A model generated the notes under the pieces. The model worked only from the letters and a program-made list of their open reading frames with translations. It was not told the DNA's origin and made no database searches. Shown here piece after piece: positions 10,887-19,407 of a stretch of 20,784 nt of DNA. The position numbers and the translations under genes are program-made. Within the stretch, counting starts at the first letter, position 1, and every line of letters begins with the position of its first letter. The stretch is from a virus. The stretch spans positions 1 through 20,784 of IMG/VR virus record IMGVR_UViG_3300047564_004814; one strand, written 5' to 3'.

Positions 10887-11354
10887 ATGTATTACGTTTA
10901 TCTCTATCTAAAGGAGGATGGAACTCCTTATTATGTTGGTAAAGGGAAAGGAAACAGATGGAAACAAAAGTCTCATAGTGTTGAAGTTCCACCTCCAGAT
11001 AGAGTTATTTTTTATGTAAAAGATGTTGATGAAGAAACTGCATTAAAAGAAGAAGTTAATTTAATTCTTAAGTATGGTAGATTAACTGATGGAACTGGAA
11101 TATTAGAAAATAAAACAGATGGGGGTGATAGTCCACCAAAACAATATAAGCACTTATATAAACCTTATGAAAGAACACAAGAAATAAAAGAAAAATATTC
11201 TAAATCTGCTCATAGAAAGGGAAGACCTGGAAAACAAACTCAAGAAGAAATTGAAAGAAAAAGAGAATCTATGAAAAATGTATGGGCAGAAGGAAAAAGA
11301 AAAAAACTTTCCAGAGACTCTAAAGGTAGATTTTTAAAGACAAATGAATCCTAA
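10887..11354 (+). CDS. GIY-YIG homing endonuclease, free-standing
   Basis: A 155-residue protein. The N-terminal nuclease domain has the GIY-YIG signature in variant form: YVYLY (for GIY), YYVGKGKGNRW (for YIG, with the conserved Arg), a Glu-bearing helix (ALKEEVNLILKYGR) and the closing ENKTDGGD. The C-terminal half is basic with SKSAHRKGRPGKQTQEE, resembling the NUMOD3-type DNA-binding modules of phage homing enzymes. Such enzymes cut a related phage genome lacking the gene and spread by repair. It sits directly after nrdB, and genes of this kind are often found beside phage nrd genes. It overlaps the next small gene by 11 bases. No Shine-Dalgarno is seen. Confidence 0.88.
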   Translation: MYYVYLYLKEDGTPYYVGKGKGNRWKQKSHSVEVPPPDRVIFYVKDVDEETALKEEVNLILKYGRLTDGTGILENKTDGGDSPPKQYKHLYKPYERTQEIKEKYSKSAHRKGRPGKQTQEEIERKRESMKNVWAEGKRKKLSRDSKGRFLKTNES

Positions 11355-18032: not shown

Positions 18033-18224
18033 ATGTCTGAAACCGTAACACAACTTGCTGAAGCATTTGCGACTTGGCAAACTGAAGATGAAAAGTTCGT
18101 AAAGGGAAATGGTGCCGCTGGCACTCGTGCCCGTAAATCACTACAAGAAATCGCTAAACTGGTCAAGGCTCGTAGAGCAGAAATCAGCGACGAAAAGGCT
18201 GCCCGTAAGGAAGCAAAGGGTTGA
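18033..18224 (+). CDS. Histone H1-like (Hc1-type) small basic protein
   Basis: A 63-residue protein with a strong Shine-Dalgarno (TTGGAG) before the ATG at 18033, preferred over the TTG at 18021. The stretch KGNGAAGTRARKSLQEIAKL resembles the start of Hc1-type nucleoid proteins of bacteria (KGNKAA, then Arg-rich helix), and the tail is Lys/Arg/Ala-rich (SDEKAARKEAKG). Such proteins bind and compact DNA; here it might act on phage or host DNA. Its codons are more host-like than its neighbours' and suggest high expression. The stop TGA overlaps the -35 box of the next promoter. The family call is by motif only. Confidence 0.7.
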   Translation: MSETVTQLAEAFATWQTEDEKFVKGNGAAGTRARKSLQEIAKLVKARRAEISDEKAARKEAKG

Positions 18225-18249
18225 CAGTAAACCCTCAATAGACTATAAT
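18221..18249 (+). promoter_or_regulatory. Consensus sigma70 promoter for the tRNA cluster
   Basis: TTGACA (18221-18226), exactly 17 bases, TATAAT (18244-18249): a perfect match to the bacterial consensus. Start is expected near 18256. It overlaps the stop codon of the Hc1-like gene. Confidence 0.9.
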
Positions 18250-18255
18250 ACTGAG

Positions 18256-18338
18256 ACGGGTGGAGGAGGTCCAAACTTCTCATAAATCCCACACCTCCCA
18301 TGCCTCTCATAGAAGCACAAACAGGGAGGTCCCTTTAT
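18256..18338 (+). other. Leader before the tRNA cluster
   Basis: About 80 bases with no gene. GGAGGTCC occurs twice, 60 bases apart (18265, 18325), and TCTCATA twice between them, so this looks like an old imperfect duplication. A GGAGGAGG run has no start codon at a workable distance. Confidence 0.4.
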
Positions 18339-18488: not shown

Positions 18489-18664
18489 TTGGAGATTTAT
18501 TCTCCATACATAAATTGATAGAGCGTAAGTCCCTGTTATATCCTTATGAGGTATATCACACTTACGCCATCAATCGTAGGAAGTGCAACACCTCTCGCTG
18601 GTTTAGACTGGATGATGTGAAAGGTGATTCTGTCCGCACATAGAAATCCCTCCTACCACAATAA
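18489..18664 (+). other. Structured non-coding stretch between tRNAs
   Basis: 176 bases without a gene. It holds a long hairpin, ATTGAT (18514-18519) with ATCAAT (18569-18574) and GCGTAAGT (18523-18530) with ACTTACGC (18560-18567), then a region closed by GTAGGA (18576-18581) and TCCTAC (18651-18656). Parts resemble the leader at 15745. It may be a small RNA or tRNA remnants; no cloverleaf is complete. Confidence 0.45.
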
Positions 18665-18737
18665 TCCCATCGACCGAGCAAGCGAACGGGCCCGACTGTT
18701 AATCGGAGATTGGTAGGGGCAGTACCTACGATGGGAG
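18665..18737 (+). tRNA. Atypical tRNA-Asn (GUU) or tRNA-like RNA
   Basis: Cloverleaf by manual pairing: acceptor TCCCATC/GATGGGA (7 of 7), D-stem CCG/CGG (3), anticodon stem CCCGA/TCGGA (4 of 5) with the canonical Asn loop CTGTTAA, T-stem GTAGG/CCTAC (5 of 5), discriminator G. However, the T-loop is GGCAGTA instead of the TTC type, and the D-loop AGCAAGCGAA lacks GG. The elbow contacts would be lost, so it may be a degraded or specialised tRNA. Confidence 0.5.
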
Positions 18738-18784
18738 TTCTAACCTCTAAAATATTATAAATAATAATAAGTTGGAGGTTAGAA
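18738..18784 (+). promoter_or_regulatory. RBS-sequestering inverted repeat before the HNH gene
   Basis: TTCTAACCTC (18738-18747) and GAGGTTAGAA (18775-18784) are a perfect 10-bp inverted repeat. The second arm covers most of the Shine-Dalgarno (GGAGG, 18774-18778) and the A of the ATG. The 27-base loop holds a late promoter box. Read-through RNA would fold and block translation; RNA started at the late promoter would lack the first arm. Confidence 0.8.
18756..18763 (+). promoter_or_regulatory. T4-type late promoter TATAAATA inside the hairpin loop
   Basis: A perfect box. With T4 spacing the start would be near 18769, giving a leader of about 15 bases with a free Shine-Dalgarno. Confidence 0.82.
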
Positions 18785-19317
18785 TGTCTGGTAAAAGAGT
18801 TGTCCAATTTCGTCAAAGAAGAAAAAGATGGGCAGTTGATGCATTTGGTGGTAAGTGTGGTATTTGCGGTTATGATAAATGTGTTGAAGCATTGGAGTTT
18901 CATCACATAGACCTCAACCAAAAAGATTTCACACCATCAGCATCTGTAGCAAACAGGCAAGTATTTGTTGAAGAACTTAGAAAGTGTGTTTGTTTATGTT
19001 CTAACTGTCATCGTGAGGTTCATTCTGGTATTACTAAAATACCAGATAATGTATCAAAATTTGATGAAAGTTTTTCTGACAAACCTTTACCAGAAAAACC
19101 AAAACATCCTTGTAAAGAGTGTGGAAAACTAACAATTATTACTCAAACATTCTGCTCAGTAAAATGTTCTCGTAAAAGTAGAGAAGTTGCTGATTGGCCA
19201 ACTAATCAAGAATTACAAAAACTAGTTCTTGAAAATGGATATTCTGCTACTGGTAGAATGTTTGGGGTTAGTGATAATGCTGTTAGAAAAAGGTTAAATA
19301 GAAAATCCGCCCTATAA
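18784..19317 (+). CDS. HNH homing endonuclease, free-standing
   Basis: A 177-residue protein; the ATG at 18784 (GGAGG five bases upstream) is preferred over the TTG at 18772. The HNH core is CGICGYDKC, LEFHHIDLNQKDF, then CLCSNCHREVHSG, with two zinc-binding Cys pairs and the catalytic His pair. A second Cys cluster (CKECGKL, FCSVKC) follows, and the C-terminus (ENGYSATGRMFGVSDNAVRK) is a helix-turn-helix for DNA recognition. It lies between tRNA-Asn-like and tRNA-Thr; its last two codons and stop are the first nine bases of tRNA-Thr. It probably acts as a mobile endonuclease homing into tRNA clusters of related phages. Confidence 0.92.
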   Translation: MSGKRVVQFRQRRKRWAVDAFGGKCGICGYDKCVEALEFHHIDLNQKDFTPSASVANRQVFVEELRKCVCLCSNCHREVHSGITKIPDNVSKFDESFSDKPLPEKPKHPCKECGKLTIITQTFCSVKCSRKSREVADWPTNQELQKLVLENGYSATGRMFGVSDNAVRKRLNRKSAL

Positions 19318-19379
19318 GCATTGTGGTGATGCAGCAGTTTTGTAAACTGCAGAGAACAGTTCAATTCTGTTATGGGGCT
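19309..19379 (+). tRNA. tRNA-Thr (UGU)
   Basis: Acceptor GCCCTAT/ATGGGGC (one G-T), D-arm GCAT/ATGC, anticodon stem GCAGT/ACTGC with loop TTTGTAA (TGT), T-arm AACAG-TTCAATT-CTGTT, discriminator T; CCA not encoded. The 5' nine bases overlap the end of the HNH gene and its last base is the first T of the next -35 box. Confidence 0.93.
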
Positions 19380-19407
19380 TGACATAATATTCATTATGTC
19401 TTATACT
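19379..19407 (+). promoter_or_regulatory. Sigma70-type promoter with palindromic spacer
   Basis: TTGACA (19379-19384), 17 bases, TATACT (19402-19407). A perfect inverted repeat GACATAAT-ATTC-ATTATGTC (19381-19400) fills the -35 and spacer. It serves tRNA-Gly and the porin. Confidence 0.88.

Follow-up and report, generated by a model that had tools for sequence, protein, structure and literature searches.

What governs the translation of an endonuclease gene that lies among the tRNA genes of a cyanophage? The question is raised by IMG/VR record IMGVR_UViG_3300047564_004814, of which positions 1 to 20,784 were analysed as a whole (hereafter the window). The 20.8-kb window is a fragment of a T4-like cyanophage genome, with S-SRM01 as its best isolate match, and contains a cluster in the order tRNA-Arg, tRNA-Ala, a tRNA-Asn-like element, a hairpin with an HNH endonuclease gene, tRNA-Thr and tRNA-Gly. 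The hairpin buries the ribosome-binding site of the HNH gene and encloses a T4-type late promoter box, TATAAATA. Based on sequence comparison and predicted folding, we propose, with a probability of about 0.8, that the element acts as a T4-type temporal translation switch, which would be off in early RNA and on in late RNA. The predicted folding, the position of the late box, the upstream early promoters, the conservation of the hairpin and its recurrence with unrelated arms all fit this reading.

Predicted folding and promoters of the HNH gene leader

The arms of the hairpin, TTCTAACCTC (18738–18747) and GAGGTTAGAA (18775–18784), are perfect reverse complements of 10 bp, exactly as an earlier note on this DNA had claimed. 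The repeat buries the Shine-Dalgarno sequence and touches the start codon (18784–18786), and TATAAATA, also called in that note, is located in the apical part of the hairpin (Table 1). The hairpin is larger than the 10 bp first described: its outer helix has 14 pairs, including G·U, and its inner helix has 6. Its minimum free energy (MFE) is −21.3 kcal/mol (z −7.63), a stability equalled by 0 of 200 shuffled sequences. In a search of Rfam, neither the hairpin nor its surroundings matched a known leader, riboswitch or intron.

In T4, the late box lies about one helical turn upstream of the transcription start (PMC2988020). By this rule, the predicted late start is located downstream of the whole 5′ strand. 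Folding prediction for the two RNAs bears out the difference that the earlier note had expected: the cost of opening positions −12 to +3 relative to the start codon is 20.2 kcal/mol in read-through RNA versus 4.9 kcal/mol in late RNA, and the unpaired probability of the Shine-Dalgarno sequence in read-through RNA is below 0.002. The predicted opening costs average 15.7 versus 3.3 kcal/mol (long versus late RNA) across the gene family of the window, and 6.2 versus 4.2 kcal/mol in 24 other cyanophage late genes.

The sigma-70 promoter proposed as the source of early RNA is present, with a perfect TTGACA-17-TATAAT. It lies 535 bases upstream, with no strong terminator seen in between, and its RNA may read through into the HNH gene. 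With regard to late transcription, all nine ATAAATA sites in the window are on the + strand and upstream of open reading frame (ORF) starts, eight at a distance of a few tens of bases and one at about 80, and NATAAATA is the known late promoter of cyanophages (PMC2984593). Homologues of the late sigma factor gp55 (E 1e-16 to 1e-21) are encoded by relatives of this 20.8-kb fragment, namely S-SRM01, DSL-LC03, S-SKS1 and a contig that carries the gene family of the window (L039).

An inverted repeat of this length is not significant by itself: three of at least 10 bp occur in the window, versus about one expected from shuffled windows. The claim is therefore built on the combination of features and on conservation. 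When the 60 upstream bases were shuffled with the part from TATAAATA to the ATG kept fixed, the observed stem was reached in 0 of 5000 trials. The full combination, defined as arms of at least 10 bp, TATAAATA in the loop, and a Shine-Dalgarno sequence and start codon at the 3′ arm, is found a single time in the window and in 0 of 400 whole-window shuffles.

Table 1. Coordinates of the leader, the HNH gene and the flanking features in the window
Feature	Position	Strand	Remarks
Sigma-70 (early-type) promoter TTGACA-17-TATAAT	18221..18249	+	12/12 consensus match; upstream of tRNA cluster; putative source of read-through RNA
Outer helix, 5′ strand	18737..18750	+	Perfect core 18738–18747; missing from predicted late RNA; kept in 47/48 relatives
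Inner helix, 5′ strand TATTAT	18753..18758	+	Pairs with 18764–18769; in L023, U-A replaced by C-G (double change)
T4-type late promoter box TATAAATA	18756..18763	+	Invariant in alignment of relatives
Predicted late transcription start	18769	+	From T4 rule, about one helical turn 3′ of box
Outer helix, 3′ strand	18772..18785	+	Holds Shine-Dalgarno GGAGG (18774–18778) and first two bases of ATG
HNH endonuclease gene, 177 aa	18784..19317	+	ORF; phrog_35854 HNH endonuclease, E 4.6e-28
tRNA-Thr(TGT)	19309..19379	+	First 9 bases encode end and stop codon of HNH gene

Conservation, recurrence and overlap with tRNA genes

To follow the leader beyond the window, we compared 48 close relatives of the HNH gene with a readable leader, found in viral contigs. 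Hairpin and TATAAATA are kept in 47 of them, with one exception (L008), in which the gene has an early-type promoter of its own and no 5′ arm, a replacement that also counts in favour of the switch. The keepers, counting the window, comprise 21 distinct leaders, with hairpin MFEs of −13 to −21 kcal/mol, and the structure of the window pairs 95% of the cells in their alignment, versus at most 56% in slid controls. The alignment contains two of the compensatory double changes that the earlier note had looked to relatives for, and covariation within the family is modest. Of 33 relatives, 31 have a sigma-70 promoter with a consensus match of 11/12 or better upstream of the gene.

The same architecture recurs on other endonuclease genes. 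In DSL-LC03, an unrelated HNH gene (family B) precedes a tRNA-Thr that is 100% identical over 73 bases, and its leader forms a perfect 12-bp hairpin, ATAGTAGACCTT/AAGGTCTACTAT, enclosing TATAAATA; within family B, one locus (L119) has compensated arms. S-SRM01 carries a distant homologue of the HNH gene of the window behind a tRNA, with arms TACATACAC/GTGTATGTA, and a 20-bp hairpin at an endonuclease VII-type gene (126172). Further cases are found in S-SKS1 (23326) and at HNH or GIY-YIG genes in three contigs (L053, L102 and L149). Among eight cyanophage isolates, the six strongest late-promoter hairpins are all at endonuclease-type genes, and the same scan applied to T4 as a positive control recovered I-TevII, e and soc. 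Specifically, in S-SRM01, TATAAATA sites lie in strong stems at 10 of 12 endonuclease starts versus 1 of 23 elsewhere (Fisher 3.7e-6), with an endonuclease query set drawn in part from genes found via their leaders; PHROGs independently match nearly all of these S-SRM01 genes to HNH, endonuclease VII or homing endonuclease families. The occurrence on unrelated endonuclease families, with unrelated arms, points to repeated selection.

The HNH protein contains an HNH part, zinc-finger-like cysteines and a C-terminal helix-turn-helix-like part; a Pfam search gave no match above the cut-off. Its gene is probably a selfish element. No close copy was found in phage isolates, S-SRM01 has a different arrangement between the same two tRNAs, and the tRNA 3′ of the gene varies among relatives (Thr, Val, Lys, Met or Asp). 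Such patchy presence and changing neighbours, as read from these sequences, are what is seen for free-standing HNH homing endonucleases. S-SRM01 was also considered as a clean empty site and rejected as such, with other DNA filling the space from tRNA-Asn to tRNA-Thr.

The overlap of the HNH gene with tRNA-Thr is shared by many relatives. In the family of the window, 26 of 49 loci have a gene end that reaches 8–23 nt into an intact tRNA (Thr, Val, Lys, Met or Asp); in family B, the gene end reaches 8–37 nt into tRNA-Thr in all 13 loci. For 11 relatives, ARAGORN calls a tRNA-Phe behind the gene that spans 90 nt and resembles a remnant; these relatives were therefore left out of the intact overlaps.

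Proposed mechanism and alternative explanations

In the proposed switch, early read-through RNA would carry both arms and leave the HNH gene silent. At late times, phage-modified RNA polymerase (gp55-type) would initiate within the hairpin, near 18769. The resulting mRNA, lacking the 5′ arm, would present the same ribosome-binding site in a usable form, allowing the HNH gene to be translated. The likely benefit is that the nuclease would be made late and that the early precursor of the overlapping tRNA would stay free of ribosomes. Because the HNH gene ends inside a tRNA, translating early RNA would run ribosomes across that tRNA. For I-TevI, delayed translation has been shown to protect intron splicing (PMC3014915); by analogy, the hairpin here may serve to spare early tRNA precursors the passage of ribosomes. 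If so, a ribosome translating early RNA would interfere with the folding and processing of the tRNA, much as translation of I-TevI interferes with splicing of the td intron, and the overlap offers a testable reason for the delay, namely a conflict between translation and maturation on a co-transcribed tRNA. More tentatively, and with somewhat less than even confidence, we suggest that cyanophage homing-type endonucleases carry common, exchangeable leaders with a late promoter in a hairpin, which in tRNA clusters shield early tRNA precursors from ribosomes.

Several observations weigh against the switch. The arms show so little variation within the family of the window that covariation there is thin. 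One lineage, L008, lacks the switch: its 5′ arm is gone, and a sigma-70 promoter, TTGACA-17-TATGAT, stands in its place, directly behind tRNA-Leu. One group of loci (L032–L035) has a weakened Shine-Dalgarno sequence (AUAGG) and a mismatch. In addition, the late RNA is predicted not to be fully open, since part of its Shine-Dalgarno sequence can pair with downstream UCCAA.

Alternatively, the hairpin could serve chiefly in RNA processing or stability and part the tRNA precursor from the mRNA as an RNase III/E target or as a 3′ protector, with the burial of the Shine-Dalgarno sequence as a by-product. In nearly all relatives, it follows the 3′ end of a tRNA or tRNA-like element by 0–3 nt, a location that agrees with such a role. 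However, leaders of other endonuclease genes that do not adjoin a tRNA place unrelated arms exactly on the Shine-Dalgarno sequence and start codon, TATAAATA always lies between the arms, where processing has no need of it, and loss of the 5′ arm goes together with an early promoter in its place, all of which make this explanation improbable. Slightly less probable still is an operator at the DNA level, in which the endonuclease would bind the dyad around the late promoter and repress it, as I-TevI does. The dyad does take in the promoter, but the arms do not track the protein: they differ within one protein family (L119 versus the other family B loci), and unrelated endonucleases share identical arms of class II. 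Furthermore, the sole similar site in the window is the T-arm of tRNA-Arg, with 2 mismatches. A chance palindrome in AT-rich DNA beside a strong Shine-Dalgarno sequence, although 10-bp inverted repeats arise about once per shuffled window, can be dismissed in view of both shuffling tests (0/5000 and 0/400), the recurrence on other genes and the conservation in 47/48 relatives, the last of which already refutes it.

The resemblance of the 5′ arm to the tRNA-Arg T-arm (15/17 identity) was examined separately as a possible origin of the arm. This origin is not supported and was ruled out, as relatives with an intact tRNA-Asn carry the arm after the acceptor stem, several of them with a loop-breaking extra T.

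Comparison with known switches and further elements

The switch logic that the earlier note ascribed to T4 e, soc and I-TevI and to mobE is borne out by the literature, which describes the mechanism for T4 e, soc, I-TevI, I-TevII, I-TevIII and SegB and for Aeh1 mobE (PMC2988022, PMC3014915). The claim that a different endonuclease family makes the present case new fails, because Aeh1 mobE and T4 I-TevIII are themselves HNH. One close counterpart is mobE of Aeromonas phage Aeh1, an HNH homing endonuclease gene with its ribosome-binding site in a hairpin, a late promoter, and transcription reaching it from an early/middle unit upstream (Gibb and Edgell 2007, 2009, cited in PMC2988022, PMC3014915). 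Unlike the gene of the window, mobE lies inside a ribonucleotide reductase gene, with no tRNA context, and the function of its hairpin has been tested, whereas that of the window is predicted. T4 SegB shares the setting: this free-standing homing endonuclease is encoded among clustered tRNA genes, and both a hairpin and a late promoter are predicted for it (PMC2988022). It differs in belonging to the GIY-YIG family and in having E. coli as its host, and the text consulted on it reports no overlap of gene end and tRNA. In I-TevI, I-TevII and I-TevIII, early RNA likewise forms a hairpin at the ribosome-binding site and a late promoter yields RNA without the 5′ strand (PMC2988022), and for I-TevI the delay in translation safeguards the folding of the intron RNA that hosts the gene; these genes are intron-encoded, and the RNA protected is a group I intron, whereas in the window it is possibly a tRNA precursor. 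T4 e and soc follow the same logic (PMC3014915), but are lysis and capsid genes with shorter stems (scores 16 and 13, versus 24 in the window).

A literature search that covered few subscription papers found no report of such a switch in cyanophages. As far as searched, the new part is thus the wide use on cyanophage homing-type endonucleases together with the tRNA overlap. With the proposed switch, a classic control device of T4 would also operate in cyanophages, where it would be the usual late-promoter form at endonuclease genes in at least S-SRM01.

S-SRM01 (L285–L296), with a genome of 241 kb, encodes at least 15 endonuclease-like ORFs, 13 of which have a NATAAATA box at the start. A wcaG RNA (RF01761, 101 bits; L294:11427–11524) lies about 1 kb upstream of one S-SRM01 endonuclease gene. 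A second, modular leader type was seen outside the window, in S-SRM01 (L285:17950–18053, L287:8430–8536 and L294:12430–12520) and in further contigs (L130–L133 and L297–L408). It consists of CCTGA-arm-TCAGG (P1, whose loop holds the 5′ arm), a nested terminator-like hairpin that is G+C-rich and followed by T residues, TATAAATA, the complementary 3′ arm, TTAGAGTAG and the start codon. Across 39 distinct leaders, which have 20 loop sequences between them, pairing with the own 3′ arm averages 9.3 bp, versus 4.0 bp when arms are swapped. This leader type is common to unrelated GIY-YIG and HNH genes, one arm type serving unrelated endonucleases, and Rfam gave no credible match in the two examples closely examined. 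From its sequence, CCTGA could pair with TCAGG or, via CTGA, with TTAG, making two exclusive states possible.

Elsewhere in the window, a GIY-YIG-like ORF (10887–11354) with a weak homing endonuclease match lies directly behind nrdB, with neither late box nor hairpin seen at its start. An abiF RNA (RF03085, 44.8 bits, above gathering) is located at 18294–18330, between the early promoter and tRNA-Arg, and occupies the same place in S-SRM01. A second near-consensus sigma-70 promoter (11/12; 19379–19407) lies directly 3′ of tRNA-Thr, before tRNA-Gly. Between tRNA-Ala and the tRNA-Asn-like element there is a structured, unannotated stretch (18489–18660) with a stem formed by GCGTAAGT/ACTTACGC, the first part of which (18489–18572) is 87% identical to S-SRM01. 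The tRNA-Asn(GTT)-shaped element itself (18665–18737) has the usual arm lengths and was missed by ARAGORN and by the Rfam tRNA model; a fixed D-loop, AGCAAGCGAA, and the T-loop GGCAGTA (also GGCGGTA and AGCGTTA) replace GG and TTCRANY. Its core is present in many viral contigs (L421, L450, L451, L460 and others) with the anticodons GTT and GCA (Cys), frequently with an encoded CCA and with stems that vary in compensation, and these elements are possibly phage tRNAs with an altered elbow.
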